Below are positions 5,503 to 32,354 of a stretch of 64,000 nucleotides of DNA, piece by piece. The stretch is from positions 5,394,001-5,458,000 of the forward strand of contig NZ_JARUBP010000001.1 in assembly GCF_029626225.1 (NCBI RefSeq), given 5' to 3'. This DNA comes from Asanoa sp. WMMD1127 (GTDB lineage Bacteria > Actinomycetota > Actinomycetes > Mycobacteriales > Micromonosporaceae). Under the pieces are notes generated by a model, which saw only the letters and a program-made list of their open reading frames with translations, ran no database searches and was not told the DNA's origin. The stretch's first letter is position 1, and every line of letters starts with the position of its first letter. Position numbers and translations under genes: made by a program.

Positions 5503-6306
5503 TCAGACCGTCGGCACCGGGGCGTTCAGCGGCGGGCCGTAGAACTGGCGGCCCAGCGACTGTCCACCGTCGGCGGTCAGCACCTCGCCCGTGACGTAGC
5601 CGGCGCGGTCGCTGAGCAGCAGGCCGCACAGGTCGGCGATCTCGGCCGGCTCGGCGAAGCGGGCCGCCGGGACCGAGGAGAGCACCCGCGCGTGGTCCTC
5701 CGGAGTCGCCCACAGCGCGGCGCCGGCGCCGTCGGTGGTCGTCGGGCCGGGCGCGATGCAGTTGAGCCGGATGCCGTAGCGGGCCCACTCGGCCGCCAGC
5801 GTCCGGGTCATCGTCACCACACCCGCCTTCGCGGCCGCGCTGTGCACGGTGCCCGGGTGACCGATCCAGGCGTACGTGGCGACCACGCTCAGGATCGCGC
5901 CCGGGCGGCCCGACTCGATCAGGGCGCGGCCGACGGCCGACGTGCAGTACCACGTGCCGTTGAGCACGATGTCGACCACCGCGCGCCAGCCGTTGGCCGA
6001 CAGCTTCTCGGCCGGCACCACGAAGTTGCCCGCCGCGTTGTTGACCAGGCCGTCGACCTGGCCGAAGCGGTCGAGGGCGCGGCCCACCAGCGCGTCGACC
6101 TGGTCCGGCTGCCGGACGTCCGTCGGCACCGCCAGGGCCTGACCCCCGTGGGCGGCCACCTCGGCGGCGACCGCGTCGAGCTTCTCGGCGCGCCGGCCGG
6201 CGATCGCGACCGCCGCGCCCAGCTCGGCCAGGCGCAGCGCGACGCAGCGGCCGATGCCGCTGCCGCCACCGGTCACCACGAACACGCGGCCTTCGAGCGA
6301 CTCCAT
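5503..6306 (-). CDS. SDR-family oxidoreductase resembling 2,4-dienoyl-CoA reductase
   Basis: A 267-residue NADP-type short-chain dehydrogenase: TGGGSGIGR (13-20) binds the cofactor and NNAAGNFVVPAEKLS is a signature of dienoyl-CoA reductases. The classical YxxxK is replaced by SxxxK (HSAAAK). A tyrosine at 145 lies exactly 15 residues before Lys160, the spacing of Tyr199 and Lys214 in human DECR1. It probably reduces an unsaturated acyl-CoA. ATG 6306 is chosen because GAGGAG lies eight bases upstream; a GTG one codon earlier is possible. It is the last gene of the long minus-strand operon, 12 bases after the MFS gene. Confidence 0.8.
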   Translation of the reverse strand: MESLEGRVFVVTGGGSGIGRCVALRLAELGAAVAIAGRRAEKLDAVAAEVAAHGGQALAVPTDVRQPDQVDALVGRALDRFGQVDGLVNNAAGNFVVPAEKLSANGWRAVVDIVLNGTWYCTSAVGRALIESGRPGAILSVVATYAWIGHPGTVHSAAAKAGVVTMTRTLAAEWARYGIRLNCIAPGPTTTDGAGAALWATPEDHARVLSSVPAARFAEPAEIADLCGLLLSDRAGYVTGEVLTADGGQSLGRQFYGPPLNAPVPTV

Positions 6307-6318
6307 CACAGGTACTCC

Positions 6319-7506
6319 TCACATTGTGCAGTCGGGCCCGGCGTACGCGGGGCGGCGCAGCCAGTAGCGTCCGACCAGCGCGGCGGCGCCCAGGACGCCG
6401 GCGAGCGCCCCGGCCAGGAATGCCGAGCGGTAGGAGCCGGTGGCCGAGACGACCATGCCGAGCGCCACGGCGCCGAGACCGGCGCCGACGTCATAGGAGA
6501 TGCTGTACGCGGCGACGACGGAGCCTTCCCGGGCGCGCGGCACCCCGGTCAGCGACATCTTCATCAGCAGCACGTACTGCAGGGCGATCGCGACCGCCAT
6601 CAGCGCGGCGGCGACGTAGAGGGCGGCCGGCGCGGCCCACAGCCCGGCCACCAGGAGGCCGAGCACGTTGGCGACGCAGCCGGCGAACACCACGGTCACG
6701 ATCGGCAGGCGGTCGAACAGCCCCGCGCCGGCGATCCGGATCGTCAGCGTCAGGAACGAGTAGACGAAGAACACGGTGCCGGTGGCCGGCAGCCCGATCT
6801 CGGGTCCGTAGAGCGGCACCAGCGCCTGGAAGCCCGCGTAGCCGACGATCGACAGGGCGAGCACGAGGGCCGGCCACACCGCGGTCGGCTGCACGAGCGT
6901 GGCGAAGAACGGCTCGGGCGGCGGCGGGGGACCGGCCGGGACGGTCCGGGCGCGGGTCACCGTCACCGGCAGCGCGAGCAGCAGCACCACGGCCGACACC
7001 AGCCAGGTCGGGTCGAGGCCCTGCCAGCCGATGATGGCGTCGCCGAGGACCGGGCCCATGGCGGTGCCGAGGAACAACGGCACGGAGAAGTACGCGAGCA
7101 CCCGGCCGCGCCGCCCGTGCGGTGTCTCCTGGACCACGCTGGTCGCCGCGGCGGTGTAGAAGATGCCCACGGCGGCGCCGTCGATCACCCGCAGCACGAG
7201 CATGACGGGCAGGTTCGGGGCCAGCGGGGTGAGCGCCAGCGCGGCCGCGCCCACCACGACCGACAGCGTCATCAGCCGCCACGGGTCGCCGGTGCGCAGG
7301 TAGCGGCCGGCGAGCGGGCGCCCAGCCACGCTCGCCACGCCGTAGAGCAGGACGGTCACGCCGACCGCGGTGGGCCCGGCGCCGTAGCGGTCGTGGATGT
7401 AGCGGGGGAGCAGCGGGGTCAGCATGCCGACCGACGCGTACACCCACCACATGCCGACGATCGCCCGCGCCACCAGGCGCCAGGGCACCACCACGACGTC
7501 GGTCAC
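6319..7506 (-). CDS. MFS transporter
   Basis: A 395-residue integral membrane protein with about twelve hydrophobic segments and a central hydrophilic loop (near RARTVPAGPPPPPE), the usual 6+6 arrangement of the major facilitator superfamily. Loop 2-3 has the family motif in the form GRPLAGRYLRTGDPWR. GTG 7506 overlaps the stop of the DUF35 gene (GTGA), so the two are translationally coupled. Its place among CoA-thioester genes suggests uptake or efflux of a carboxylic acid related to the pathway, but no substrate can be read from the sequence. Confidence 0.85.
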   Translation of the reverse strand: MTDVVVVPWRLVARAIVGMWWVYASVGMLTPLLPRYIHDRYGAGPTAVGVTVLLYGVASVAGRPLAGRYLRTGDPWRLMTLSVVVGAAALALTPLAPNLPVMLVLRVIDGAAVGIFYTAAATSVVQETPHGRRGRVLAYFSVPLFLGTAMGPVLGDAIIGWQGLDPTWLVSAVVLLLALPVTVTRARTVPAGPPPPPEPFFATLVQPTAVWPALVLALSIVGYAGFQALVPLYGPEIGLPATGTVFFVYSFLTLTIRIAGAGLFDRLPIVTVVFAGCVANVLGLLVAGLWAAPAALYVAAALMAVAIALQYVLLMKMSLTGVPRAREGSVVAAYSISYDVGAGLGAVALGMVVSATGSYRSAFLAGALAGVLGAAALVGRYWLRRPAYAGPDCTM

Positions 7507-7913
7507 GGGCCGGCCGGACGGAACGCGGGCAGGTGGTAGCCGTCGGCGACCGGCGTCCAGGTCAAGGCGACCCGGTCACCGACGGCGAACGACTCCGGCG
7601 CCGCGCCGACCAGGTTGGCCAGGACGCGCACACCCTCGTCGAGGTCGACGAACGCGACCACGTAGAGACAGTCCTCCGGTCCCATGGCCTCGAACGGTCG
7701 ATGATGGATGGACAGGGCGTGCACGGCCCCGTCGCCCGGGCTCTCCCGCCACGACAGATCGGTGCCCAGGCAGCCCGGGCACGCCTCCCGCGGGTGGTGC
7801 ACGAAGCGGGCACATGCGGCGCACCACTGCAGCAGCAGCCGCCGCTCCCTCGTGGCGGCCCAGTAGGGACCGGTGGCGTCGCTGGGCTTCGGGCGGAAAT
7901 CGGCCTGGCTCAC
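7503..7913 (-). CDS. DUF35 zinc-ribbon/OB-fold acyl-CoA-associated protein
   Basis: A 136-residue protein with a rubredoxin-like zinc ribbon (Cys31, Cys34, Cys45 and Cys48, in LQWCAACARF and EACPGCLGTDL) followed by a DUF35 OB-fold (HALSIHHRPFEAMGPED, VRVLANLVG). Such proteins form obligate complexes with thiolase-superfamily partners, for example HMG-CoA synthase complexes in archaea and the steroid aldolase Ltp2. GTG 7913 overlaps the stop of the thiolase-like gene by four bases, strong evidence that the two work together. It probably positions or shields the acyl-CoA rather than carrying out catalysis. Confidence 0.85.
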   Translation of the reverse strand: MSQADFRPKPSDATGPYWAATRERRLLLQWCAACARFVHHPREACPGCLGTDLSWRESPGDGAVHALSIHHRPFEAMGPEDCLYVVAFVDLDEGVRVLANLVGAAPESFAVGDRVALTWTPVADGYHLPAFRPAGP

Positions 7914-9049
7914 AGCGTCTCCTCCGTGCCGAGCACCACGGTCGACATCGCCGACAGGTACTGCCCAGAACCGTGCGCGACGGCCACCGAGGCGCCCGGC
8001 ACCTGGCGCGGCCCGGCCTCGCCGCGCAGCTGCCGGGTCGCCTCGGTGAGCAGGAAGATGCCGTACATGCCCGGATGGGTGTACGACAACCCGCCGCCGT
8101 TGGTGTTCATCGGCAGCGACCCGCCGGGCCCGGTGCGCCCGCCGGCCACGAACGCCCCACCCTCGCCCTTGGCGCAGAACCCGAGATCCTCCAGGTGCAG
8201 CAGCGCGGTGATGGTGAACGAGTCGTAACCCATCAACAGGTCCACATCGGACGGCGTGATGCCGGCCGCCTTGAACGCCCGGGCGCCGGAGACCGCGCCG
8301 GGCGTCACGGTCAGGTCGGGCATGGCGTGGATCATGTTGTGGGTGTGGCAGGACGCGGCGCCGAGCACATACACGGGCGGCCGGCGCAGCGACCGGGCGC
8401 GCTCGGCCGACGTCACCACGACCGCGCCGGCGCCGTCGGTGACGAGGCAGCAGTCGAGCTGGTGCAGCGGCGAGCAGTAAACGGGGGAGGCCAGCACGTC
8501 GTCGACGGTCAGCGGGTCGCGGAACCGGGCGTCCGGGTTGTACGCGGCCCAGGCCCGGGTGCTCACCGCGATCTCGGCGAGCTGCTCGGGCGTGGTGCCG
8601 TAGACCGCCATGTGCCGGCTCGCGGCCAGCGCGTAGGAGCCCATGAGGCCCAGCCCGTAGGGCACCTCGAACTCGTCGCGGGGGCCGGGCGGCTCGTACC
8701 AGCCGCCCGTGCCGCGCCTGCGGTCGCCGCGCGGGGTCGCGGCGTAGACGATCACCACGACCTCGCACTGCCCGGCGGCGATCGCGGCCGCCGCCTTCTC
8801 CAGGTAGAGCTCGAACCCGGAGCCGCCCGTGTAGGTGGACTCCGTGAACACCGGCGCGATGCCGAGGAACTCACCGAGGTCGAGGGACGAGCCGGCGTGG
8901 CACAGCCCGTCGACGTCGGCCAGCGTCAGGCCGGCGTCGGCGAGCGCCTCGCGGATCATCCGGGCCTCGAGCGCCCGTCCCCAGTCGGGCAGCTCGCCGG
9001 TCGGCGCGGCCGCCTCGGCCACGCCGACGATCGCGGCAGCGCCTCTCAC
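7910..9049 (-). CDS. Thiolase-fold protein lacking the catalytic cysteine, Ltp2-like candidate acyl-CoA aldolase
   Basis: A 379-residue member of the thiolase/SCP-x branch. Where thiolases carry the nucleophilic cysteine, this protein reads STYTGGSG (71-78). Tyr275 in GYDSF and Tyr323 in LSYTHPG occupy regions that are catalytic tyrosines in Ltp2, the steroid side-chain retro-aldolase that works with a DUF35 partner. Such a partner is encoded immediately downstream with a 4-base overlap. I infer retro-aldol cleavage of a 3-hydroxyacyl-CoA rather than thiolysis. The position match to Ltp2 is from memory of the family, not an alignment. The GTG start overlaps the solute-binding protein stop. 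An alternative is a non-catalytic or lipid-transfer role. Confidence 0.75.
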   Translation of the reverse strand: MRGAAAIVGVAEAAAPTGELPDWGRALEARMIREALADAGLTLADVDGLCHAGSSLDLGEFLGIAPVFTESTYTGGSGFELYLEKAAAAIAAGQCEVVVIVYAATPRGDRRRGTGGWYEPPGPRDEFEVPYGLGLMGSYALAASRHMAVYGTTPEQLAEIAVSTRAWAAYNPDARFRDPLTVDDVLASPVYCSPLHQLDCCLVTDGAGAVVVTSAERARSLRRPPVYVLGAASCHTHNMIHAMPDLTVTPGAVSGARAFKAAGITPSDVDLLMGYDSFTITALLHLEDLGFCAKGEGGAFVAGGRTGPGGSLPMNTNGGGLSYTHPGMYGIFLLTEATRQLRGEAGPRQVPGASVAVAHGSGQYLSAMSTVVLGTEETL

Positions 9050-10164
9050 AGAACGAACTCCTGGAACCGCTTGAGGACGGCGTCGGTGTGCTCGCCCCAC
9101 CACTTGTCGTCGCGGACGAACTGCAGCTTGGCGTTGTCGGGGTGGGTCGGCAGGCCCTTGGCCCACTTCTCGTCCATGAACTCGACGGCCTTGCTGTTGG
9201 TCGGACCCTCCAGATAGGAGCCCCAGAGCTTGCCCTGCACCTCCGGCTGCACCGAGTACTCGATGAGCTGGAACGCGGCGTCCTTGTTCCGGGCGCCCTT
9301 CGGCACGATCCACGAGGCCGGCATCAGCATGCCCTGGTTGTAGGTGTAGCCGATCGGCGCGCCCTCGTCCTGCAGCGTGCGGATCCGGCCGATCCAGATG
9401 CTGGCCGCCGACACCTGCCCGCTGACCAGCATCTGCCCCGGCTGCGAGCCGGAGCTCCACCACTGGCTGACCCGATCCTTGATCTTCGCGTACGAGGCGA
9501 ACGCGCGGTCGACGTCGAGCGGGTAGAGCTGGTCCACCGGCACGCCGTCGGCCATCAGCGCGAACTCGAGCTCCGGCACGCTGCCGCCCTCGATGCCGGC
9601 CAGCGTGCGCTTGCCCGGGATCGATCCGCTCCAGAAGTCGGCCCAGCTGCCCACCTGCTGGCCGCCGAGCGTCTTGGTGTTCCAGCCGATGTTGCTGGAG
9701 AAGACGTAGTAGGCCAGGGCGTGGGTGTCGACGTACTCCTTGGCGATGCCGTCGATGGACATGAGCTTGTCGGGCAGCGGCTCGAAGTAGTCGCGGCCGA
9801 GTGAGAGCACATTGGACAGACCGCCGGCCACCACGTCCCACTCGACGTTGCCGGAGTCGACCATCGCCTTGATCTTCGCGTTGCTGGGCGGACCCGAGAT
9901 GACGACCTCGATCCCGGTCTCCTTGGTGAACGGCTCGTAGAGGTTCTTCTTCTCGGCGTCCTGGATGGCGCCGCCCCAGTCGGCGACGACGACCCGCTTG
10001 CTGCCGCCCGACCCGGAACCCGAGCCGGAGCCGGCGCCGGCGTTGCTGGGCGTGCTGTTGCCGCAGGCGGCGAGGATGGGCGCGGCGGCCAGGCCGCCAC
10101 CGAGTAGGGCCGCGTGCCGGAGCATGTCGCGGCGGGTGTAGCGGAAGCGCGGATCGGGAGTCAT
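9046..10164 (-). CDS. ABC transporter substrate-binding lipoprotein, PotD-like
   Basis: A 372-residue extracellular solute-binding protein of the spermidine/putrescine (PotD) type. The N-terminus has a twin-arginine motif (TRRDMLRHA), a hydrophobic stretch and a lipobox (LAAC), followed by a flexible Ser-Gly linker, so it should be a Tat-exported lipoprotein. The mature part starts with RVVVADWGGAIQD. ATG 10164 is preferred to an upstream TTG (10176) because GGAG lies six bases before it. It sits in the same operon as its presumed ATPase and permeases (14341-17224) but is separated from them by three acyl-CoA genes. The ligand may therefore be a carboxylate rather than a polyamine. Confidence 0.85.
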   Translation of the reverse strand: MTPDPRFRYTRRDMLRHAALLGGGLAAAPILAACGNSTPSNAGAGSGSGSGSGGSKRVVVADWGGAIQDAEKKNLYEPFTKETGIEVVISGPPSNAKIKAMVDSGNVEWDVVAGGLSNVLSLGRDYFEPLPDKLMSIDGIAKEYVDTHALAYYVFSSNIGWNTKTLGGQQVGSWADFWSGSIPGKRTLAGIEGGSVPELEFALMADGVPVDQLYPLDVDRAFASYAKIKDRVSQWWSSGSQPGQMLVSGQVSAASIWIGRIRTLQDEGAPIGYTYNQGMLMPASWIVPKGARNKDAAFQLIEYSVQPEVQGKLWGSYLEGPTNSKAVEFMDEKWAKGLPTHPDNAKLQFVRDDKWWGEHTDAVLKRFQEFVL

Positions 10165-10183
10165 CGTTGTCTCCAAGCGTGGG

Positions 10184-11347
10184 TTACGCGAACATGCCGC
10201 GTTTGAGGAGGTTGCGGGCGAGGACGCCGCGCTGGATCTCGGAGGTGCCCTCCCAGATGCGCTCGACGCGCGCGTTGCGGTAGGCCCGCTCGACGTACAT
10301 CTCGTTCATGTAGCCGGTGCCGCCGAAGATCTGCAGCACCCGGTCCGCGACGCGGCCGTAGGCCTCGCTCGCGAACACCTTCACCGCCGACGCCTTGGCG
10401 CTGACCACCTTCGGGTCCACGCCCTGGTCGTCGTCCCACGCCGCGTTGTAGGTCATCATCCGCGACGCGTACAGGTCGATCGCCGAGTCGGCGAGCATGA
10501 ACTGGACCGCCTGGAAGTCGGCGATCGGCCGGCCGAACTGGACCCGCTGCTTGGCCCACTCGGTGCCCTCGTCGATCAGCCGGGCCATCGGGCCGAGGCA
10601 GCGGGCGGCGGTCATGATGCGGCCGTTGCGCAACCAGTCCCGGCCGAGCTCGAAGCCCTTGCCGGGCTCGCCGAGGATCTGCTCCGGGCCGACCACGCAG
10701 TCGTCGAAGACCAGCTCGGCCTGGCGGTAGCCGCGCTGGCCCATCGTGCGGTGCACCTGGCCGACGGTGAACCCGGGCGTGCCCTTGTCGACGAGGAACG
10801 CGGTGATCCGGTCGCGCTCGCGGTCAGGATGGGTCACCGCGAACACGATCGCGAAGTCGGCCGTGTCGCCGTGGCTGATGAACCGCTTCTGCCCGTTGAT
10901 CACCCACTGGCCGTCGCGCGGCTCGGCCCGGGTCCGGATGCTCTGCGCGTCGGAGCCGGCGCCCGGCTCGGTCAGCGCGAAGCAGTCCTGCTTCTCCCCG
11001 CGGATGCAGGGGATCAGGTACTTCTCCTTCTGCTCCGGCGTGCCCTCCAGCAGGATGTTGGACGCGCCCGGGATGGTGCCGCTGGAGACGCCCGGGGCCG
11101 CGCGGGAGATCTCCTCGGTGAGCAGGACGTGGGCGAGGGTCCCGTGCCCGCCGCCGCCGTACTCCTCGGGCATCTCCAGGGCGTTGAGGCCCATCGCGAT
11201 CGACTTCTTCTTCAGGTCGCGGACGATCTCGTCGGGCAGGCCGTCGTTCTCCTCGGCCAGGTCCTCCAGCGGGATCAGCTCGGTGTCGACGAAGCGGCGC
11301 ACGGCCGCGCGGAACTCCTGCAGCTCCGGTGGGATCGAGAAATCCAT
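10184..11347 (-). CDS. Acyl-CoA dehydrogenase
   Basis: A 387-residue FAD-dependent acyl-CoA dehydrogenase that introduces a 2,3 double bond into a CoA thioester. Visible motifs are ALTEPGAGSD (FAD and substrate contact), QRFGRPIADFQAVQ-like sequence in the C-terminal helical domain, FGGTGYMNEMYVERAYRNAR and the C-terminal RIWEGTSEIQ, in which Glu366 is the likely catalytic base. It follows the acyl-CoA synthetase gene by 17 bases. Its substrate range cannot be predicted. The surrounding genes imply that it acts after CoA activation by the upstream ligase. Confidence 0.9.
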   Translation of the reverse strand: MDFSIPPELQEFRAAVRRFVDTELIPLEDLAEENDGLPDEIVRDLKKKSIAMGLNALEMPEEYGGGGHGTLAHVLLTEEISRAAPGVSSGTIPGASNILLEGTPEQKEKYLIPCIRGEKQDCFALTEPGAGSDAQSIRTRAEPRDGQWVINGQKRFISHGDTADFAIVFAVTHPDRERDRITAFLVDKGTPGFTVGQVHRTMGQRGYRQAELVFDDCVVGPEQILGEPGKGFELGRDWLRNGRIMTAARCLGPMARLIDEGTEWAKQRVQFGRPIADFQAVQFMLADSAIDLYASRMMTYNAAWDDDQGVDPKVVSAKASAVKVFASEAYGRVADRVLQIFGGTGYMNEMYVERAYRNARVERIWEGTSEIQRGVLARNLLKRGMFA

Positions 11348-11364
11348 GTGTCCTTCCTCCTGTC

Positions 11365-14259: not shown

Positions 14260-14340
14260 CGTCTTCGCCTTTCGAGGGCAGGGTCGGGCCGCACGACGGG
14301 TCCACGCCGTCGCGCGCTGTCGGGCCGGTCGGATCTCGGG

Positions 14341-15432
14341 TCAGGTCACTACGGGCAAGAACAGGGAGTCGGTCGGGGACCAGGTCAGCCACCGGCGGGC
14401 GCCGGCCTCGACGCGGGCGTCACCGGCCGGGGCGTGCACCTGGACGCGGGCGCCGGAGTCGGCCCGGATGTAGAGGTGCACCACGGATCCGAGGTAGACA
14501 CTGGCCTCGACGACGCCCGGGATCCGGTTGAGGTCGGTCGCGTCCGGCTCGGCGGCCGCGACCCGGAACTTCTCCGGGCGCACGACCAGCACCCCCTGAT
14601 CCGTGTCGGCCATGTCGTTGGCCTTGTCGACGACCACCTTGCCGAGGCCCTCGACGTCGAGCACGCTGTGCGCGCCGCGCTCGACCCGGGCGGCCGGCAG
14701 GCACACGGAGTCGCCGAGGAACTGGGCGACGAAGGAGTTGACCGGCCGCTCGTACATTTCGACGGGTGAGGCCACCTGCTGCAGGCGACCCTTGTGCATC
14801 ACGCCGACCCGGTCGGAGAGCGCGAGCGCCTCGTCCTGGTCGTGGGTGACATAGAGGACGGTCGCGCCGATCCGCTGCTGGAGGGACTTGAGCTCCAGCC
14901 GCAGCCGGTCGCGCAGGTTGCGGTCGAGCGCACCGAGCGGCTCGTCCATCAGCAGGATGCTCGGGTCGTAGACGAACGCCCGGGCCAGCGCGACCCGCTG
15001 CTGCTGGCCGCCGGACAGCTCCCGCGGGTAACGGCCGCGGAAGTCCTCGAGCTGCGTCATCTCCAGCACGCGCTGCACCTTGCCGGGCATCTCGGCCTTG
15101 GGCGTGCGGCGCATCGACAGCGGGAAGCGGATGTTGTCGGTGACGGTCATGTGCGGGAACAGCGCGTAGTTCTGGAAGACCAGGCCCACGTTGCGCTTCT
15201 CGGGCACGACGTTGGTGACCGACCGGCCGTCGATGGTGATCTCGCCGGCGCTGGCCGCCTCCAGGCCGGCCAGCATCCGCAGCGTGGTCGTCTTGCCCGA
15301 GCCACTCGGCCCGAGCAGGGTGAAAAACTCTCCACTCTGGATGGTGAGGTTGAGGTCGACCACCGCCGGGAAGTCCCCGAAGTACTTGTCGATGCCGGTG
15401 AAGACGACCTGGCCGCCGATGCTGCCGCTCAC
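14341..15432 (-). CDS. ABC transporter ATP-binding protein, PotA-like
   Basis: A 363-residue ATPase with Walker A (GPSGSGKTTTLRML), Q-loop region (LVFQNYALFPHMTV), signature (LSGGQQQRVALARAF), Walker B (ILLMDEPLGALD) and H-loop (VLYVTHDQDEALAL). The C-terminal TOBE domain is typical of the PotA/CysA/MalK group. It energises the two permeases encoded just upstream; its GTG start overlaps the PotC-like stop. Together with the lipoprotein at 9046 it completes a type I importer of the spermidine/putrescine class. Confidence 0.92.
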   Translation of the reverse strand: MSGSIGGQVVFTGIDKYFGDFPAVVDLNLTIQSGEFFTLLGPSGSGKTTTLRMLAGLEAASAGEITIDGRSVTNVVPEKRNVGLVFQNYALFPHMTVTDNIRFPLSMRRTPKAEMPGKVQRVLEMTQLEDFRGRYPRELSGGQQQRVALARAFVYDPSILLMDEPLGALDRNLRDRLRLELKSLQQRIGATVLYVTHDQDEALALSDRVGVMHKGRLQQVASPVEMYERPVNSFVAQFLGDSVCLPAARVERGAHSVLDVEGLGKVVVDKANDMADTDQGVLVVRPEKFRVAAAEPDATDLNRIPGVVEASVYLGSVVHLYIRADSGARVQVHAPAGDARVEAGARRWLTWSPTDSLFLPVVT

Positions 15433-16328
15433 GAGAGGTCCTTTCCGCTTCTGCCGAGGGCCGGTTCGCCGTCGGCGGCCAACGCGCGCCGGCGGCGCCG
15501 GGCCCGCACGGACCCGGCCACCTCGACGAGCAGGAAGAGCCCGACGGACACCACGATCAGCACGGTGCCGGCGACGGCCAGGGTCGGGTCGAGGTCGTAG
15601 CGCACGCTGTCCCAGAGCTTGCGGGGCAACGTGATCGCGTCACTGCCGGCGACGAAGAGGATGACCACCGCCTCGTCGAACGCGGCCACGAAGGCGAAGA
15701 TGGCGCCCGCCCCGATCGCGCTGGCCAGCCGGGGCAGGGTGATCTTCCACAGGGTCCGCACCGGGCCGGCGCCGAGGGTCCGGGCCGCGTTCTCCAGCTC
15801 CGGATCGAAGTGCTGCAGCGCGCCGGAGACCGCGACGAGCACCATGGGGATGCCCATCACGGCGTACGCGGCCGCGATGGCGAACTCGTTGCCGATCAAC
15901 TGGAGCTTGGCGAAGAAGAAGTAGTAGCTCATCGCCAGCACGATCAGCGGCACGATCATCGGCGACAGCATGAGCGCGAAGATCAGGCCGCGGCCGCGCA
16001 TCTTCGAGCGGGCCAGCGCCCAGGCCGCCATCGAGCCGATCAGCGTGGCCAGGATGGCCGCCATCAGCGCGATCCGGGCACTGGTGACCGTCGCGTGCAC
16101 CCAACTGCTGTCGCTGAAGAACGCGCGGTAGAACTTCAGCGAGACGCCCTCGAGCGGGAAGCTCAGGTAGGCGACGCCGTTGAAGGACTCCGCGACCACG
16201 ATCGCGATCGGCACGACGAGGAAGGCGAACACCGCCCAGACCAGGATCCGGAAGGCCCAGCCGAGCGTGCGCTCCAGCGGAGTGCGCGGCAGCTTCGCCC
16301 GCCGGCGTCTGATCGTCATGTCGGTCAT
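15429..16328 (-). CDS. ABC transporter permease, PotC-like
   Basis: A 299-residue permease with six predicted membrane helices and the ATPase-coupling loop ENAARTLGAGPVRTLWKI near the C-terminal third, a variant of the EAA motif. The basic N-terminus (RRRRAKLPR) should be cytoplasmic. ATG 16328 overlaps the stop of the other permease gene by four bases, and the ATPase gene starts inside its own stop, so the three transporter genes are coupled. The pairing of two different permeases fits the PotB/PotC subfamily. Confidence 0.9.
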   Translation of the reverse strand: MTDMTIRRRRAKLPRTPLERTLGWAFRILVWAVFAFLVVPIAIVVAESFNGVAYLSFPLEGVSLKFYRAFFSDSSWVHATVTSARIALMAAILATLIGSMAAWALARSKMRGRGLIFALMLSPMIVPLIVLAMSYYFFFAKLQLIGNEFAIAAAYAVMGIPMVLVAVSGALQHFDPELENAARTLGAGPVRTLWKITLPRLASAIGAGAIFAFVAAFDEAVVILFVAGSDAITLPRKLWDSVRYDLDPTLAVAGTVLIVVSVGLFLLVEVAGSVRARRRRRALAADGEPALGRSGKDLS

Positions 16329-17224
16329 ACCCGTCCCACCAGCCCTTCGACGCGGGTGAAGCGGCGCACCAGCAGGTAGAGGCCGACCGAGAGGACCAGC
16401 AGGATCGTCGCCATCGACGCCGCCATGCCCCACTCGAACGTCGTGTTGACCTTCTGCTCGATGAGCATCGCGAACGTCGTCTCGCCGGGCCCGCCGACCA
16501 GCGCCGGCGTGATGTAGTAGCCGAGCGCCATGATGAACACCAGCAGCGTTCCGCTGGCCATGCCGGGCAGCGCGAGCGGCAGGTAGACCCGCACGAACGC
16601 GCGCACCGGCCCGGCGCCGAGCGTGCGGGCGGCCCGCAGCAGGGTCGGGTCGATCTGGTCGAGCGTGCCCTTGACGGTCAGCACGAGGAACGGCAGCAGC
16701 ACGTGCACCATCGCCACGACCACCGCGCCCTCGCTGTAGAGCAGGCCGGTCGTGTTGCCCGTGAACGGCGAGAGCAGCTTGGCCACCAGGCCGTTGTCGC
16801 CCAGCAGGACGATCCAGGCGAACGACCGGACCAGCACGCTGGTCCAGAACGGGATGATCACGAACAACGCGACGATCCGGGCCTTCCGCGGTGGCAGGCC
16901 GCTCATGTAGACCGCCACCGGGAAGCCGAGGAGCAGCGTGACCACGGCGACCTCGATGGAGATCCGCGTCGTGATCCACAGGACCTTGAGCATCACCGGG
17001 TCCTGGAAGGCGGCGGTGAAGTTGCCGATGCCCGGCACCGGGTCGGTGAACGACTGCACGAGGACCCGGCCCAGCGGCACCGCGTACAGGAATGTCATGA
17101 AAACGACCGGGATGGCCAGCACCACGGTCGTGAAGCTCGGCCGGTACGCCCTGCGGCGTCGGGGCGGCGCCGGCGGCGGGGCCGGCTGCCCGGTTCGGAC
17201 CGGTGTCGAGACCGACGAGACCAC
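16325..17224 (-). CDS. ABC transporter permease, PotB-like
   Basis: A 299-residue inner-membrane permease with six hydrophobic segments and coupling motif LRAARTLGAGPVRAFVRV. The GTG at 17224 is preferred to an upstream ATG at 17416 because GGAGG lies about ten bases before it and the extra 64 codons look non-coding. The N-terminal proline-rich stretch (PAPPPAPPRRRR) precedes helix 1. It is the first gene of the long minus-strand operon and diverges from the PucR-type regulator gene, which probably controls it. Confidence 0.88.
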   Translation of the reverse strand: MVSSVSTPVRTGQPAPPPAPPRRRRAYRPSFTTVVLAIPVVFMTFLYAVPLGRVLVQSFTDPVPGIGNFTAAFQDPVMLKVLWITTRISIEVAVVTLLLGFPVAVYMSGLPPRKARIVALFVIIPFWTSVLVRSFAWIVLLGDNGLVAKLLSPFTGNTTGLLYSEGAVVVAMVHVLLPFLVLTVKGTLDQIDPTLLRAARTLGAGPVRAFVRVYLPLALPGMASGTLLVFIMALGYYITPALVGGPGETTFAMLIEQKVNTTFEWGMAASMATILLVLSVGLYLLVRRFTRVEGLVGRV

Positions 17225-17453
17225 GCCTGGTCCACCTCCAGTCGCTGACTCGGGTGGCCGCCGCGGTGACGGAGGCCACTTATGAACGGGAAGTAAAAGC
17301 TGACCTTGGGTCGATGTCATCGGGACCGCAGGGCAAAAGTCGGTCAGGTGCGCTGTGGTCGGGGCACAAACCTGCACGTCGAGTGGGTGACAGCGCTGTG
17401 AAAGGGGTGTAAACACAGGTCACGGGATCGCACAAACCCCCGGGAGCGCAGGT
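17225..17453 (+). promoter_or_regulatory. Divergent control region between the importer/acyl-CoA operon and the PucR-type regulator
   Basis: This 229-base region is less GC-rich than its surroundings and should hold both promoters. The 9-base word GCACAAACC occurs twice in direct orientation (17364-17372 and 17430-17438), a possible activator site. GGAGGTGG precedes the minus-strand permease start, and GGGAGC precedes the regulator start at 17454. I cannot define -10 and -35 elements with confidence. Confidence 0.4.
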
Positions 17454-18716
17454 ATGCCGACCACCGCGACCACGTCCGCCCTCGCCGACCAGCTCCGTGC
17501 CGCCGCCCCGCAGATAGCCAACGAGCTGGGCCATCGGGCCTCCCGGGCGGCCGCGCTCGACCCCGGGGGAGTGGCCCGTCCGCGGGAGCCGTTCGACCTG
17601 GCGATGCTGGTCGTCGAGCTGTGCAGCGCCGCGCTGGAGGACGACGCCGACGTGCGGGACTACGTCAGGTCACGGGTCGACTCCTGGGAGTCGAGCGGCG
17701 CACGGCTGGCGCTGCAGGGCGTGCCGGTCACCGAGACGATCGAGTGGCTGCGCTGCCTCGAGCACGTGATCAGCGACCGGGTGCTGTCCTGCGACGGCCT
17801 CGACATGGTGCGGGCCCGCACGGCGCTCGGCCGGATCACCGCGCTCTTCGACGCGCTCTGCGACCGGGAGCTGCGCTCCTACACGTCGACCTACGACGAC
17901 CTGTCCAACTGGTACTCGCGGGTCGGCACCGACCTGGTCACCTGCCTGGCCTCGGGCGGTCCCGTGGAGCCGCACACCGTCAACGGCCAGGCGCGGGTGC
18001 TCGGCATCGACCCGCACCAGCCGTTCCGCGCGGTCACGGTCTACCACGACGGCGACCCGTCCCCGGCCCACTGGGCCCGCGTCCGGCAGCGGGTGCTCGA
18101 CCTGCTGTCCCGCTACGACCCCAAGCGCGAGTCGGTGCTCCGCGACCGGCCCGGCATGCTGCTGGCCATCGTGCCCGTCGACCGGCCCGGGCCCGCGCTG
18201 CCCGAGGTGCTCAACCGGCTGCTGGCCGACGAGGAGCTGGCCGCGACGCTGTTCGTCTCGATCGGCGAGCAGGTCGACTCGCTCCCGCTGGCCGGGCGCA
18301 GCTGCCGGCAGTCACTGTCCGCATTGGAGATCGGCATCTACCGCGCCCAGCGCGGCAAGGTGGTGCAGTGCACCGAGGTGATCCTCGAGGTGTTGCTGGC
18401 CCACAACGCCTGGGTCTCCAACCGGATCGTCACCACCCGGCTGTCGCCGCTGCTGGAGAAGCCGCACCTGGTCGACACGCTGCGGGCCTACATCAGTGCC
18501 GAGATGTCGTTGCAGCGCACCGCCGAGCTGCTCGTCGTGCACCCCAACACGGTCGCCTACCGGCTGCGCCAGATCGCCACCCTGACCGGGCGCGACATGC
18601 GCAAGCTGACCGACATGGCCGACCTGGTCGTGGGCCTGACCGCGCTCGACGTCATCGAGATGCGCCAGGACTCCGGCCCGGACCGGGTCGACCTGCGCGC
18701 CAAGCTGCTCGGCTGA
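17454..18716 (+). CDS. PucR/CdaR-family transcriptional regulator
   Basis: A 420-residue regulator. The C-terminal HTH (about 339-378: LVDTLRAYISAEMSLQRTAE, then HPNTVAYRLRQI) is the PucR C-terminal helix-turn-helix found in CdaR, PucR and many actinobacterial catabolic activators. The middle part resembles the GGDEF-like CdaR domain and the N-terminal 150 residues are helical. Such proteins usually activate an adjacent pathway in response to a small molecule. Here it lies between the divergent importer/acyl-CoA operon and the aldehyde dehydrogenase/ThDP enzyme operon, so it is likely to control both. Confidence 0.88.
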   Translation: MPTTATTSALADQLRAAAPQIANELGHRASRAAALDPGGVARPREPFDLAMLVVELCSAALEDDADVRDYVRSRVDSWESSGARLALQGVPVTETIEWLRCLEHVISDRVLSCDGLDMVRARTALGRITALFDALCDRELRSYTSTYDDLSNWYSRVGTDLVTCLASGGPVEPHTVNGQARVLGIDPHQPFRAVTVYHDGDPSPAHWARVRQRVLDLLSRYDPKRESVLRDRPGMLLAIVPVDRPGPALPEVLNRLLADEELAATLFVSIGEQVDSLPLAGRSCRQSLSALEIGIYRAQRGKVVQCTEVILEVLLAHNAWVSNRIVTTRLSPLLEKPHLVDTLRAYISAEMSLQRTAELLVVHPNTVAYRLRQIATLTGRDMRKLTDMADLVVGLTALDVIEMRQDSGPDRVDLRAKLLG

Positions 18717-18830
18717 CCCCGACTCTGTGCCGGCGCCATCAGCGGCCGGTCGCAAGTTTGGGTGACGCAACCGAAGACGTGATCGTTCCCGCTCCCTATC
18801 GTCGATGCGTCGAGACGTGCGGGAGCCGCC

Positions 18831-20255
18831 ATGAACGATCGAAGCATCTTCGTCAACGGTGAGTGGGTCGCGGCACACGGCCGCGAGCTGATCCCGGTGA
18901 TCGATCCGAGCACCGAGCAGTGCGTGGCCACCGTGCCGGAGTGCAGCACCGAGGACGTCGACGACGCGGTGCGGGCCGCCTGGCTGGCCCGGCCGGCGTT
19001 GCGGGCGCTCACAGTGGACGATCGGGTCGCGTCGCTGCGCCGCCTCGCCGACGAGCTGGAGCGCCGGGCCGGCGACCTGGCCGACCGGATCTCGCTGGAG
19101 ATGGGGATGCCGCGGCACCTGTGCGGGCCCTACCAGGTGGCCTCGGCCATCGGGGTGCTCCGCACGACGGCCGACGAGCTGCCCACCGTGGCCTTCCGGG
19201 AACGGATCGGGCACTCGTGGGTCGTGCGCGAGCCGGTCGGGGTGGTCGTGGCGATCACGCCGTGGAACTACCCGCTGCTGCAGACGACCTCGAAGATCGG
19301 GCCCGCGCTGGCCGCCGGCTGCCCGGTCGTGCTCAAGCCCAGCGAGCTCGCGCCGCTGGACGCCTACCTGCTCGCCGAGGCGGTCGCGGCGGCCGGCCTG
19401 CCGCCCGGCGCGGTCAACGTGGTGATGGGCACCGGGCCGCACGTGGGCGAGAGCCTGGCGCGGCACCCGCAGGTGGCCATGGTGTCGTTGACCGGGTCGA
19501 CCCGGGCCGGGCGGCGCGTGGCCCAGGTCGCCGCCGCGTCGGTCAAGCGGGTCGCGCTGGAGCTGGGCGGCAAGAGCCCGTCGGTCGTGCTCGCCGACGC
19601 CGACCTGGCCGCCGCGGTGCGGCACACCGTCGACTCGGTGCTGGTCAACAGTGGACAGACGTGCACGGCGCTGACCCGGCTCGTGGTGCCCTATCAGCGG
19701 TTGGGCGAGGTGGAGGAGCTGGTGTCGGCGGCGATGGCCGGCTACCGGGTCGGTCCCGCGGCCGAGCCGACGTCCGACCTCGGGCCGGTGGCCAACGCCG
19801 CGCAGCTGCAGCGGGTGCGGGAGCACGTCGAGCGGGCCGAGGTCGACGGGGCGCGGCCGCTCTGGGCGTACCCGGGGGATCGCCTGCCGGAAAAGGGTTT
19901 CTTCGCCGCGCCCGCCGCGTTCGTCATCCCCGACCCGACCATCGACCTGGCCCGCTCCGAGGTCTTCGGGCCCGTGCTCAGCGTGATCCCCTATGTCGAC
20001 GAGGACGACGCGGTCGCGATCGCCAACGCCACCGACTACGGGCTGGCCGCGACGGTGTGGTCCGCCGACGAGGAGCACGCCCTGCGGGTGGCGGAGCGGA
20101 TCGAGAGCGGGACGGTCGACCTCAACGGCGCGCCGTTCAACGGCCGGGCGCCGTTCGGCGGTTACAAGCAGTCGGGCCGCGGGCGGGAGCTCGGCCGGTT
20201 CGGCATCGAGGAGTTCACCGAGCTCAAGTCCATCCAGACGGGGGTAGGCGGATGA
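18831..20255 (+). CDS. NAD(P)-dependent aldehyde dehydrogenase
   Basis: A 474-residue aldehyde dehydrogenase with the substrate/cofactor motif ITPWNYPLLQTT, general base Glu244 in ALELGGKSPS and nucleophile Cys278 in NSGQTCTAL. The C-terminal signature FGGYKQSGRGRELG is also present. It oxidises an aldehyde to an acid. A GGGAG ribosome binding site precedes the ATG. The ThDP-dependent enzyme gene overlaps its end as ATGA. A decarboxylase that makes an aldehyde from a 2-oxoacid, paired with this enzyme, would yield an acid for the ligase at 11365; alternatively it oxidises the aldehyde released by the putative aldolase. Confidence 0.92.
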   Translation: MNDRSIFVNGEWVAAHGRELIPVIDPSTEQCVATVPECSTEDVDDAVRAAWLARPALRALTVDDRVASLRRLADELERRAGDLADRISLEMGMPRHLCGPYQVASAIGVLRTTADELPTVAFRERIGHSWVVREPVGVVVAITPWNYPLLQTTSKIGPALAAGCPVVLKPSELAPLDAYLLAEAVAAAGLPPGAVNVVMGTGPHVGESLARHPQVAMVSLTGSTRAGRRVAQVAAASVKRVALELGGKSPSVVLADADLAAAVRHTVDSVLVNSGQTCTALTRLVVPYQRLGEVEELVSAAMAGYRVGPAAEPTSDLGPVANAAQLQRVREHVERAEVDGARPLWAYPGDRLPEKGFFAAPAAFVIPDPTIDLARSEVFGPVLSVIPYVDEDDAVAIANATDYGLAATVWSADEEHALRVAERIESGTVDLNGAPFNGRAPFGGYKQSGRGRELGRFGIEEFTELKSIQTGVGG

Positions 20256-21892
20256 CCGGCTTCACCGGTGGCGACGCGGTCGTCGAGGCGCTGCGGGCGC
20301 TGGGCGTCGACCGGGTGTTCGTCGTGGCCAGCGTGCACAACCTGCCGATCCTCAACGCGCTGCACCGCGACGGCGGCATCGCCGTGGTCAACGTGCGGCA
20401 CGAGCAGGCGGCGGTGCACGGCGCCGACGGGTACGCCCGGGTCACCGGCCGACTCGGCGTCGCGATCACCTCGACCGGGCCGGGCGCGGCCAACGCGATG
20501 GGCGGGCTGTTCGAGGCCGGCTTCGCGTCGTCGCCGGTGCTGATGCTGACCGGCCAGGTGGAGACCGGGTTCTACGGCAAGGGGCGCGGCTATCTGCACG
20601 AGGCCGAGCGGCAGCTGGAGATGCTGCGCTCGGTGACCCGCCAGGCCTGGTCGGTGCGGCGGGCGGCCGACATCGCCGAGGTCGTGGTGGCGGCGGGGCG
20701 GGAGGCGTTGACCGGGCGGCCGCAGCCGACCGCGGTGGAGATCCCGGTCGACCTGCAGTACGCCGAGACGCCGCGGACCGGTGTCGTCGCGGCGCCCGTG
20801 CCGCGGGCCGCGCCCGATCCCGCGCGGGTGGCGGCCGCGGCCGCCCTGCTGGCCGGGGCGCGGCGGCCGTTGGTCTGGGCCGGCGGCGGGGTCAACCACG
20901 CCGGCGCGGCGGACGCGTTGCGGGCGTTCGTCGAGCGGCTCGGCATCCCGGTGGTCACCTCGACCGAGGGACGCGGCGCGCTGCCCGAGGACCATCCACT
21001 GTGCCTGGGCTCCCTGGCCACCTACAAGCCCCTGCGGGCCCATGTCGAGCGGGCCGACGCCGTGCTCGTCGTGGGCAGCCGGTTCCAGATGTATCCCACC
21101 GGCTTCTGGCGCCTGCGCCTGCCGCCCGCGCTGGTGCACCTCGACGCCGACCCGACCGTGATCGGCCGGAGCTACCCGGCGCGGGTGGCGCTGGTCGCCG
21201 ACGCCCGCGACGGCCTCGCCGCCCTCGACGCGGCCCTGCCCACCGGCGCGGTCGAGCCGGGCTGGGCCGACGAGGGTCGCGCGGCGGCCGACGCCACCGT
21301 CGCCCGCGCCCGCGAGCGGCTCGGCCCGGACCACCGCGGCATCATGGACGCGATCCGCCGCCACCTGCCCCGCGACGGCGTGGTGGTGCGGGACTCGACC
21401 GTTCCCGCGTACGTCTGGGGCGACAGTCTCCTCCCCATCCTCTCCTCGCGGACCTCGCTGCGCCCGGTGTCGTCGGCGATCGGCCCCGGCCTGCCGCTGG
21501 CCATCGGCGCCGCCGCGGGCGCCGGAGAGCGGACGGTGGTCATCCACGGCGACGGCGGGATCATGCTCACGATCGGTGAGCTGTCGACGCTCGCCCAGAC
21601 CGGCCTGCCGGTGACGGTGTGCGTGTTCAACGACCGCGGCTACGGCATCCTGCGTGGCATCGAGGCGGCCACGTTCGCCGGGGCCCAGCACGACGTCGAC
21701 CTGGCGACGCCGGACTTCGCCGCACTCGCGGAGGCGATGGGCGTGCCGGCCGAGAAGGTGTCGGACGCGGCGGGCTTCGAGAAGGCGTTCGCGGCGTCGG
21801 TGGCGCGGCCCGGGCCGGCGCTGATCGAGGTCGACCTGCTCGCCCTCGCGCCGATGGATTATCCGATCGGCGGGCACGAGAACGTCGCCTGA
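20252..21892 (+). CDS. Thiamine-diphosphate-dependent enzyme, acetolactate synthase/2-oxoacid decarboxylase family
   Basis: A 546-residue three-domain ThDP enzyme. Glu51 in VRHEQAAVHGADGYAR is the cofactor-activating glutamate, TSTGPGAANAMGG follows, and the ThDP/Mg motif begins at GDGG (433-436) and runs to VCVFND. The central domain (GARRPLVWAGGGVNHAG) is of the FAD- or structural-type found in acetolactate synthase and benzoylformate decarboxylase. No regulatory small subunit gene is nearby, so it is unlikely to be the biosynthetic acetolactate synthase. Coupling to an aldehyde dehydrogenase suggests decarboxylation of a 2-oxoacid. It ends 17 bases before the nitroreductase gene. Confidence 0.85.
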   Translation: MTGFTGGDAVVEALRALGVDRVFVVASVHNLPILNALHRDGGIAVVNVRHEQAAVHGADGYARVTGRLGVAITSTGPGAANAMGGLFEAGFASSPVLMLTGQVETGFYGKGRGYLHEAERQLEMLRSVTRQAWSVRRAADIAEVVVAAGREALTGRPQPTAVEIPVDLQYAETPRTGVVAAPVPRAAPDPARVAAAAALLAGARRPLVWAGGGVNHAGAADALRAFVERLGIPVVTSTEGRGALPEDHPLCLGSLATYKPLRAHVERADAVLVVGSRFQMYPTGFWRLRLPPALVHLDADPTVIGRSYPARVALVADARDGLAALDAALPTGAVEPGWADEGRAAADATVARARERLGPDHRGIMDAIRRHLPRDGVVVRDSTVPAYVWGDSLLPILSSRTSLRPVSSAIGPGLPLAIGAAAGAGERTVVIHGDGGIMLTIGELSTLAQTGLPVTVCVFNDRGYGILRGIEAATFAGAQHDVDLATPDFAALAEAMGVPAEKVSDAAGFEKAFAASVARPGPALIEVDLLALAPMDYPIGGHENVA

Positions 21893-21909: not shown

Positions 21910-22425
21910 ATGGAAACGTTGGACGCGATCCGGGCCAGGCGCAACGTCCGCGACTACACGGCCGACCCGGTGTCCGATGAGGATCTGAGTCGCATCGCGG
22001 AGGCCGGATGGCGGGCGCCGTCGGCGTCCAACCGCCAACATTGGGACTTCGTCGTCGTCACCGACCGGGGGCAGCTGGCCGAGCTGGCCACCGTGTGGCA
22101 GTCGGCCAGTCACATCGCCCGGGCGGCGGCCGCCATCGCGCTGGTCGTGCCCCGGCCGGCCGACGACCGGCAGGCGGCGCTCGACCAGTACGACCTGGGC
22201 CAGGCCACCTACGCCATGATGCTCGCCGCGACCGACCTCGGCATCGGCACCGGCCACTCGTCGGTCGGCGACCATGACAAGGCCCGCGCTCTGCTCGGCG
22301 TGCCGGCGACCCACGACGTGGCCTACCTGCTCGGCGTCGGCTATCCGGCCGACCGGCCGCTGCGGCCCGTCGCCCGCCCCAACCGCCGCCCGTTCGACGA
22401 GGTCGTCCACCGCGGCCGCTGGTGA
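21910..22425 (+). CDS. Nitroreductase family protein
   Basis: A 171-residue FMN-dependent nitroreductase-fold protein. The start IRARRNVRDYTADPVSDEDL is the classical R-x-R/S-x-R FMN-phosphate motif, WRAPSASNRQHWDFVVV contacts the flavin and the C-terminal GVGYPADRP is family-typical. Physiological substrates in this family are varied: quinones, nitroaromatics, flavins and dehalogenation. The ATG at 21910 aligns with the family N-terminus. It converges on the VOC gene, with four bases between the stops. Confidence 0.88.
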   Translation: METLDAIRARRNVRDYTADPVSDEDLSRIAEAGWRAPSASNRQHWDFVVVTDRGQLAELATVWQSASHIARAAAAIALVVPRPADDRQAALDQYDLGQATYAMMLAATDLGIGTGHSSVGDHDKARALLGVPATHDVAYLLGVGYPADRPLRPVARPNRRPFDEVVHRGRW

Positions 22426-32328: not shown

Positions 32329-32354
32329 CTCAGAACGCACCAACAGGAGTGCAG

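Follow-up and report, generated by a model that had tools for sequence, protein, structure and literature searches.

A putative acyl-CoA catabolic gene block of Asanoa with a predicted thiolase-fold retro-aldolase and its own importer

The genome of Asanoa sp. WMMD1127 holds a gene block in which acyl-CoA enzymes, an importer and an unusual thiolase-fold protein stand together. By which reaction would this protein cleave its substrate, and which acid would the block serve? We analysed the block within 64,000 nucleotides of contig NZ_JARUBP010000001.1 (positions 5,394,001 to 5,458,000), hereafter the window.

Gene order and conservation of the block

Gene families of the 14 genes were assigned with Pfam and NCBIfam models (Table 1), and the island proposed by an earlier sequence-only reading proved to be real: eleven closely packed minus-strand genes stand divergent from a plus-strand PucR regulator, aldehyde dehydrogenase and ThDP enzyme, in that order. 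The gene list of that reading does not, however, give the true order. In the direction of transcription the PotB-like permease is followed by the PotC-like permease, PotA-like ATPase, crotonase, fused ADP-forming acyl-CoA synthetase, acyl-CoA dehydrogenase, SBP_bac_8 lipoprotein, thiolase-fold protein, DUF35 protein, MFS permease and SDR. The importer genes are thus interleaved with the CoA genes (permeases and ATPase; crotonase, synthetase and dehydrogenase; binding protein; aldolase, DUF35, MFS and SDR), as had been stated, and the same arrangement is found in the distantly related Nakamurella lactea.

Table 1. Features of the block in window coordinates
Feature	Coordinates	Strand	Model or basis
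SDR, 2,4-dienoyl-CoA-reductase-like	5503..6309	-	PRK07677
MFS permease	6319..7506	-	PF07690 (1.3e-37)
DUF35/ChsH2-type OB-fold protein, predicted aldolase partner	7503..7913	-	PF01796, PF12172
Thiolase-fold protein, predicted acyl-CoA retro-aldolase (G75-G76, Y275-D-S-F, H325-P, H359)	7910..9049	-	PRK06158
Binding lipoprotein SBP_bac_8, GABA/opine-receptor branch	9046..10176	-	PF13416
Acyl-CoA dehydrogenase	10184..11368	-	PF00441/02770/02771
Fused ADP-forming acyl-CoA synthetase (CoA-binding, Succ_CoA_lig, ATP-grasp)	11365..13464	-	PF13380, PF13607, PF13549
Crotonase, PaaG-like	13465..14259	-	PF00378
Importer ATPase, PotA-like with TOBE_2	14341..15432	-	PF00005, PF08402
Importer permease, PotC-like	15429..16328	-	PF00528
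Importer permease, PotB-like	16325..17416	-	PF00528
Divergent intergenic region, presumed promoter/operator region	17126..17453	.	gene calling
PucR/CdaR-type regulator	17454..18716	+	PF13556, PF17853
Aldehyde dehydrogenase	18831..20255	+	PF00171
ThDP enzyme	20252..21892	+	PRK07064

With the longest starts, six of the ten minus-strand junctions are 4-nt overlaps, one pair of genes abuts and the three gaps measure 7, 9 and 81 nt. The gene caller favoured later starts for the acyl-CoA dehydrogenase, the binding protein, the thiolase-fold protein and the first permease; four of the six overlaps are independent of this choice. For the first permease the probable start lies near 17125 and not at 17416; the product then has 266 aa compared to 265 aa in N. 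lactea. Inverted repeats are present in the divergent intergenic region, none of them evidently common to N. lactea. The neighbouring window genes that were scanned show no evident relation to the block.

All 14 genes are found in N. lactea in identical order and orientation with 55-79% identity, hence the block is more than a chance assembly. The shared block stops at the same two end genes, and identities include 76% for the acyl-CoA dehydrogenase, 74% for the SDR, 70% for the ThDP enzyme, 64% for the aldehyde dehydrogenase, 56% for the PucR regulator, 55-56% for the MFS permease and 59% for the DUF35 protein over the 60 aa called there. Some gaps are wider in N. lactea (97 nt between binding protein and aldolase). 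No further full copy was found in the searches made. The sequence-only reading would have given up its catabolic island if the genes did not co-occur in other genomes; they do co-occur as a conserved unit, but the full block does so in one other organism only. Its word 'undescribed' fits the literature searched, but public genomes commonly hold aldolase-DUF35 modules together with acyl-CoA genes, and we found members of the PRK06158 group in Actinomycetota, Bacillota, Chloroflexota and Pseudomonadota. A sister clade of the aldolase lies on two Streptomyces plasmids (SH-aLRT 99), where the same aldolase is paired with an amino-acid-type ABC importer and an Lrp/AsnC regulator. Identity to the counterparts in the window is only 32% for the synthetase and 40% for the SDR, so these clusters may serve another substrate.

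Active site of the thiolase-fold protein

The thiolase-fold protein scores 475 bits against PRK06158 (cut-off 421), a model named acetyl-CoA acetyltransferase in NCBIfam, and the genome has no other match to PF22691. Where thiolases have the nucleophilic Cys it carries Gly-Gly (G75-G76), with no Cys in residues 51-94. The second catalytic Cys is missing as well, the corresponding positions (C-terminal and HDCF) being H359 and Ser277, and only the thiolase His of the GHP motif is retained (H325-P326). The earlier description as Cys-less therefore holds for the catalytic positions, not for the whole protein, which has seven Cys elsewhere and keeps the thiolase His; an alignment search for a restored Cys-His-Cys set found none. 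The HDAF of P. furiosus thiolase 7yvy and BbsB 7pxp is YDSF here (Y275-D276-S277-F278). Together these residues match the Ltp2/Sal signature of steroid aldolases. Among 29 relatives, collected by whole-protein search and thus free of motif bias, Tyr is found at 275 in 28 and His at 325 in 26, and 23 have YDSF or YDAF; 17 of the 82 sequences aligned carry Ala at the position of Ser277. The neighbouring DUF35 protein carries a Cys4 zinc motif (C31-x2-C34-x10-C45-x2-C48). Because of this partner, the Ltp2/Sal signature and the Tyr and His kept in relatives, aldol-type cleavage by the predicted pair is well supported at the level of sequence, in line with the active site that the sequence-only reading had described.

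The best PDB matches by sequence were 4u4e, CtSal 9myr and TcLtp2 6ok1, and Foldseek with the AlphaFold model again placed 4u4e, Sal and Ltp2 at the top by E-value. In the loops of the active site this model is weak, and its TM-scores of 0.82-0.84 to the aldolases differ little from the 0.77-0.83 reached with true thiolases. PhlC and MucABC chains are also among the fold matches, and PhlABC is likewise reported to have a DUF35-type partner. A C-acyltransferase or condensing enzyme of this kind, or a biosynthetic island, nevertheless seems very improbable to us: the fold matches include a C88S variant of a PhlC-type enzyme, which implies a Cys where the window protein has none, and synthetase, dehydrogenase and importer fit catabolism.

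It might also be asked whether the block is an ordinary beta-oxidation island in which the thiolase-fold protein performs thiolysis. As had been noted, the block contains neither a 3-hydroxyacyl-CoA dehydrogenase nor a normal thiolase, but PF02737 and classical thiolase genes are present elsewhere in the genome, so that the dehydrogenase could come from outside. The family name and the retained His325 would agree with thiolysis as well. Against it stand the loss of both catalytic Cys and the Tyr that replaces the His of HDxF in nearly all relatives, and we consider it quite unlikely. The SDR (310.7 bits against PRK07677, just under the cut-off of 318) lacks the Tyr of YxxxK, having SAAAK (S157/K161) and a Y146 in TYAW, and is therefore not a likely candidate for the missing 3-hydroxyacyl-CoA dehydrogenase; we take the absent Tyr to be a mark of SDR-type 2,4-dienoyl-CoA reductases. 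At other aldolase loci YxxxK is kept in 55 of 64 aligned SDRs, which could be 3-hydroxyacyl-CoA dehydrogenases such as a thiolytic route would need.

In the preferred aldol reading, Tyr275 would act as base and His325 probably as acid. In the steroid aldolases Sal and Ltp2 the base is reported to be the Tyr that opens Y302DCY and Y294DHF, respectively. In our alignments Ltp2 Tyr344 and Sal Gln352 fall on H325, and Sal Cys304 on Ser277; the known acids (Tyr344 and Cys304) are therefore absent. As Ser277/His325 match neither pair, the choice of acid is a guess. A bolder reading, which we hold less likely than not, would make the PRK06158 group a third catalytic type among thiolase-fold aldolases, with a Tyr base and the retained thiolase His as acid, acting on many non-steroid acids and in this island on a GABA- or betaine-like zwitterion (e.g. 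gamma-butyrobetaine, giving betaine aldehyde and acetyl-CoA). No activity of any PRK06158-group enzyme was found in the literature searched; the proposed Tyr/His arrangement in a non-steroid setting would be new.

Substrate and proposed pathway

We see about an even chance that the block, probably controlled by PucR, catabolises a small polar carboxylic acid by import, CoA activation, desaturation, retro-aldol cleavage and aldehyde oxidation. The importer matches PotABCD at family level (two permeases, TOBE_2 ATPase and SBP_bac_8), with every Pot model under its cut-off (ATPase 353.5 bits against 355.6 for TIGR01187; PotC-like permease 148.7 against 326). The nearest solved relatives of the binding protein are the Pf622 GABA sensor (9d57/6dgv), the agropine receptor 6hly and Atu4243 (4eq7/4euo), with GABA and opines as ligands, although ligand calls for such proteins from sequence are unreliable. 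When the pocket is mapped onto Pf622 (among W9, W202, R205 and D228), W67, W261 and R264 are kept and D228 becomes A287; the Arg, which presumably holds the ligand carboxylate, is retained and the amine-binding Asp lost in both organisms. The importer would thus take up a carboxylate held by Arg in an aromatic-lined site, likely a GABA- or betaine-like zwitterion or another small carboxylate and not a steroid. The amino-acid-type importer next to the aldolase in the Streptomyces sister clade agrees with such a substrate.

The synthetase, whose one-piece PDB match is DddX 7cm9, would convert the acid to its acyl-CoA, which the acyl-CoA dehydrogenase would desaturate; crotonase and SDR might adjust double bonds. 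Hydration is less clear. Aligned to hydratase 5z7r, the crotonase has D118 and Y138 at the Glu positions that we take to be catalytic, and also D146, so the hydration once ascribed to it is doubtful. A review gives two catalytic Glu as the rule for enoyl-CoA hydratases, and by the same review the residues here are isomerase-like. The 3-hydroxyacyl-CoA might come from this crotonase or from a hydratase elsewhere. The aldolase pair would then release an aldehyde along with a CoA ester, acetyl-CoA or another one, and the aldehyde would be oxidised by the aldehyde dehydrogenase. The best NCBIfam models of this dehydrogenase are both below cut-off: aminobutyraldehyde PRK13473 (408.9 bits against 615) and betaine-aldehyde BADH (369.5 against 668.6). 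The ThDP enzyme (528.4 bits against PRK07064, cut-off 495) may supply the same dehydrogenase from a 2-oxoacid.

The isomerase-like crotonase and the reductase-like SDR would also suit an unsaturated natural substrate, with a double bond near C4 processed by dehydrogenase, crotonase and SDR before cleavage. This is possible but rather doubtful, as it leaves the block without an evident hydratase; N. lactea, unlike the window, has genes for a MaoC protein and an additional SDR next to the block. The tertiary beta-carbon favoured by the sequence-only reading, with a ketone as cleavage product, finds a model in Ltp2, which is reported to cleave a steroid at C17 to a ketone, and a retro-aldol step requires no ketone at C3. 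We consider it unlikely: the conserved aldehyde dehydrogenase suits an aldehyde from a secondary 3-hydroxyl rather than a ketone, Sal, of the same fold, is reported to yield an aldehyde, and the importer branch suggests small polar ligands.

If the aldol proposal is true, many genomes would hold C-C lyases under the label acetyl-CoA acetyltransferase, and pathway predictions would change; aldol chemistry on a thiolase fold would reach beyond the degradation of steroids and ibuprofen, to small polar acids. With an importer of its own, one regulator, one binding protein and one substrate to identify, the conserved 14-gene unit offers a compact test bed.

Comparison with known systems

The cholesterol side-chain aldolase Ltp2-ChsH2(DUF35) (6ok1) shares the thiolase fold, the missing nucleophilic Cys, YDxF and a DUF35 partner with the window protein, which has Ser for the His of YDHF and His325 for Tyr344, is 33% identical in the fold alignment and lacks an adjoining ChsH1-ChsH2 MaoC hydratase. 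Against the lipid-transfer protein model PRK07855 it reaches only 236 bits (cut-off 469), which does not indicate Ltp2 orthology. The bile-acid aldolase Sal-Shy(DUF35) of Comamonas testosteroni (9myr) also has Gly for Cys, the Tyr of YDCY and a DUF35 partner, and its reported aldehyde product is the kind predicted here; it differs in Cys304 and Gln352, where the window has Ser277 and His325, and in the Cys3His1 zinc site of Shy, which is Cys4 in the window. The putative thiolase 4u4e of Sphaerobacter thermophilus, for which no published function was found in the literature searched, shares YDSF and THPGMYG and is 54% identical in the fold alignment. For IpfD-IpfE of ibuprofen degradation a thiolase-type product is reported for a non-steroid retro-aldol step, as proposed here, but this pair acts after a ring dioxygenase. 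The GABA importers (Pf622, Atu4243) and PotABCD resemble the window's importer in SBP_bac_8, two permeases, a TOBE_2 ATPase and the GABA-site residues Trp and Arg; in the window, however, Ala replaces the amine-binding Asp, and acyl-CoA genes part the binding-protein gene from those of permeases and ATPase.

Composition and distribution of the gene block

The gene island claimed in the sequence-only reading is confirmed in the window (72.6% G+C; positions 5,394,001-5,458,000 of contig 1, the genome measuring 8.0 Mb), where Pfam and NCBIfam scans found the genes that it had named. Eleven minus-strand genes face a divergent plus-strand unit, and their close spacing would suit a single transcript; of the inverted repeats between the two units, none was convincing. 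The scanned neighbours are FBP-aldolase, HAD, Dak2, Dak1 and TPR genes on one side, and on the other a nitroreductase-family protein, a glyoxalase-family protein, an aldo/keto reductase, regulators, an alcohol dehydrogenase, a cupin and a rhamnosidase region. The small nitroreductase-family gene begins 17 nt past the ThDP gene and has no counterpart beside the block of Nakamurella lactea. A scan of three flanking proteins against PHROGs was uninformative.

Genes of the block, in order along each unit, and further features in the window and in other loci
Feature	Coordinates	Strand	Details
PotB-like permease		minus	
PotC-like permease		minus	
PotA-like ATPase		minus	
Crotonase	13465..14259	minus	
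Acyl-CoA synthetase	11365..13464	minus	fused, ADP-forming
Acyl-CoA dehydrogenase		minus	
Binding lipoprotein	9046..10176	minus	SBP_bac_8
Thiolase-fold protein	7910..9049	minus	PRK06158 group
DUF35 protein	7503..7913	minus	
MFS permease		minus	
SDR	5503..6309	minus	
PucR regulator		plus	
Aldehyde dehydrogenase		plus	
ThDP enzyme		plus	
Nitroreductase-family protein	21910-22425	plus	
Two large alpha-L-rhamnosidases	28011-38038		ABC permeases and LacI regulator close by
Protein with weak AurF match, below cut-off	L033:8865-9995		MAG loci L033, L036-L040
Aldolase with TRAP-type genes	L053:10001-21161		Bacillaceae loci L053-L057
Importer cluster of N. lactea	L122:3443-9690		near ThDP end
Second ThDP relative of N. 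lactea	L124:4276-11776		

Relatives of the block were sought by scanning genome contigs with the thiolase-fold protein, which gave 80 named loci, the best 80 of at least 553 confirmed matches. One locus among these best 80, that of N. lactea, repeats the block: with neighbouring DNA included, 14 of 14 genes occur in the order and orientation of the window. Thirteen genes are 56-79% identical between the two organisms (MFS 55% in a second comparison), and DUF35 is 59% identical over only 60 aa called. The genes flanking the SDR end and the ThDP end do not correspond, so that 5503 and 21892 look like true boundaries of the block. After its SDR gene N. lactea has another SDR and also a MaoC protein; the best match to this MaoC protein from the window genome shows 34% identity and contains an internal stop.

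The 14-gene unit is rare. Three of its proteins were searched separately, with strict cut-offs, in 394 genomes of the class: the synthetase (1e-110) and the putative aldolase (1e-130) were each found in 1 of 394, their own genome, and the binding lipoprotein (1e-70) in 3 including its own, the other two being 42-43% identical and in different operons. At 1e-60 the putative aldolase is matched in 29 of 101 relatives, own included, and apart from its own none exceeds 59%. Among the five other genomes of the genus its best matches are 48% and 42%, with three lacking any, and the ThDP enzyme (1e-140) is absent from all five. Hence the block probably arrived by horizontal transfer or has been lost from related genomes.

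Family counts were made over 83 stretches of up to 21 kb, irrespective of position within them (the best 80 of at least 553 matches, plus three stretches from N. lactea). DUF35 occurs in 70, SDR in 53 and the fused synthetase in 32, and the activation and transport genes vary among loci (AMP ligases, CoA transferase, TRAP, dipeptide-type ABC, MFS), which suggests a general acyl-CoA cleavage module. Six MAG loci, whose aldolase is 68-76% identical, encode a protein that matches AurF weakly, below cut-off; in five of these loci it lies immediately upstream of the aldolase. Perhaps they represent another use of the same aldolase. The Bacillaceae loci combine the aldolase with TRAP-type transport gene families (NMT1_3 and DctM, scanned in L055).

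Importer, substrate and accompanying enzymes

Two Streptomyces plasmids carry relatives of the putative aldolase (78-79%) and of DUF35 (60-63%). Their clusters also include a synthetase (32%), a MaoC protein, a FabG with 40% identity to the SDR and a small protein to which Pfam assigned no family. An amino-acid ABC importer is present as well, next to an Lrp/AsnC regulator; no acyl-CoA dehydrogenase was found in the clusters. The aldolases of the window, N. lactea and the two plasmids form one clade in a quick tree (SH-aLRT 99), and within it two different amino-acid-type importers lie inside the aldolase cluster. These importers are the best hint, an indirect one, to the substrate class.

Among solved structures, the binding lipoprotein is closest to the GABA sensor Pf622, the agropine receptor, 4i1d and Atu4243. 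According to PMC12999171, the GABA site comprises W9, T13, F100, Y102 (Phe before engineering), W202, R205, D228 and Y264, of which D228 bonds the amino group. The window equivalents are, in order, W67, I71, Y157, F159, W261, R264, A287 and E323, and the N. lactea pocket is the same save Cys for E323. In both proteins the Arg (R205, window R264), which we take to be the carboxylate partner, is retained and the amine-binding Asp is lost, so a carboxylate without free amine, for example a betaine, or a plain acid would fit as ligand. GABA and 5-aminovalerate are ligands of P. aeruginosa proteins from the Pfam family of the binding lipoprotein (PMC11113362); a literature search on gamma-butyrobetaine yielded nothing relevant. 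Other binding proteins of the class (L133, L134) lie with an SSADH-like dehydrogenase, and an FAD amine-oxidase-like protein adjoins the one in L133 and is ~5 kb off in L134. Another cluster of N. lactea encodes an amino-acid-type ABC importer with Amidohydro_3, enolase-superfamily and PIG-L proteins, which, we guess, may serve N-acyl amino acid use.

We regard the pathway outline as a whole, in which an acid would be activated, desaturated, hydrated and cleaved aldolytically, as evenly balanced between right and wrong. Hydration by the block's crotonase is in doubt: Asp118 and Tyr138 stand at the two Glu positions of hydratase 5z7r, and Asp146 lies within a PDAGG motif. The review PMC4498308 describes the hydratase PaaF as having two catalytic Glu and PaaG as having a single one, which matches isomerases. 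Among 37 crotonases from the loci (one N. lactea duplicate excluded), only 3 have the Glu pair, and the Asp/Tyr/Asp set is confined to three rows, one from the window and two from N. lactea. The SDR has SAAAK at the YxxxK place and TYAW upstream, presumably the dienoyl-CoA reductase arrangement. Tyr and Lys of YxxxK are kept in 55 of 64 aligned SDRs, six others being misaligned at the motif, and Ser with Lys occurs only in the window and N. lactea. That the SDR is a hidden 3-hydroxyacyl-CoA dehydrogenase was rejected because this Tyr is missing; 3HCDH and thiolase genes occur elsewhere in the genome.

Three further assignments were set aside: a steroid pathway (PF22691 is matched once in the genome, and the block lacks a ChsH1/ChsH2-type hydratase), the synthetase as DMSP lyase DddX (the one-piece match may reflect just a common domain order), and the ThDP enzyme as 2-hydroxyacyl-CoA lyase (HACL structures at 154 bits, below BbmA at 202 and acetolactate synthases). 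The NCBIfam group of the ThDP enzyme has no function attached. Its relatives in two genomes of the same order (L131, L132) do not adjoin block genes and give no substrate clue; weak relatives of the crotonase (35%), SDR and dehydrogenase (29%) lie at least 5 kb away in L131. The second ThDP relative in N. lactea (53%) accompanies flavin monooxygenase-like, esterase, SDR-like and two dehydrogenase-like proteins.

The thiolase-fold protein as a candidate aldolase

The PDB structures closest to the thiolase-fold protein by sequence are 4u4e, 9myr and 6ok1, which also come top by E-value in the fold search, before thiolases, with similar TM-scores; the predicted fold has a mean pLDDT of 75.6, with values <50 at residues 74-77 and 318-327. 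9myr is Sal and 6ok1 is Ltp2; PMC12329534 gives Tyr294 (YDHF) and Tyr344 in Ltp2, Tyr302 and Cys304 (YDCY) in Sal, Gln352 of Sal at the Tyr344 place, and Gly in Sal for the nucleophilic Cys of SCP-2 thiolases. In our alignment the window protein has G75-G76 and Y275-D-S-F; its H325 aligns with Tyr344/Gln352, and its H359 falls close to the second Cys of thiolases. The aldolase reading is well supported by sequence; retro-aldol chemistry is probable, and we propose Tyr275 and His325 as a putative catalytic pair. Near relatives have Ser or Ala at residue 277, which makes a role as general acid unlikely for it.

G75, G76, Y275, D276, F278, H325 and P326 are invariant in 82 sequences (79 proteins from the 80 loci, L051 having no called gene, plus the window and the two Streptomyces proteins; some rows are identical), a set gathered by motifs overlapping these residues. 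Since the scan looks for short peptides, and 60 of the 79 were found only through HPGMYGIF, 18 only through MGYDSFTI and 1 through both, the invariance of H325-P326 or YDSF is built in for part of the set. Free of this bias are YD[SA]F in the 60, H-P in the 18, and Gly-Gly in all aligned proteins. A fairer set comes from whole-protein search at E 1e-60 (29 loci): Tyr275 is found in 28 (one Asn), H325 in 26 (Tyr in three), Gly-Gly in 23 of 28 with data, and YDSF or YDAF in 23. The other motifs counted, YDCY or YDCF, belong to the five least similar loci, which in this respect resemble Sal. The check for motif bias altered the counts and left our confidence as it was, because this unbiased set agrees.

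No paper on the PRK06158 group was found among the literature matches listed, which cover few subscription papers; those on thiolase-fold aldolases concern steroids and bile acids, plus ibuprofen (PMC9195938), the rest being unrelated. Against the Ltp2 model PRK07855 the window protein scores 236 bits, the cut-off being 469, and is therefore not classed as Ltp2. Its group is separate from Sal and Ltp2 in a quick tree (SH-aLRT only, with partial, long-branched reference rows). The thiolases 7yvy and BbsB (7pxp) carry HDAF and GHP, whereas the window protein has YDSF at the HDAF place.
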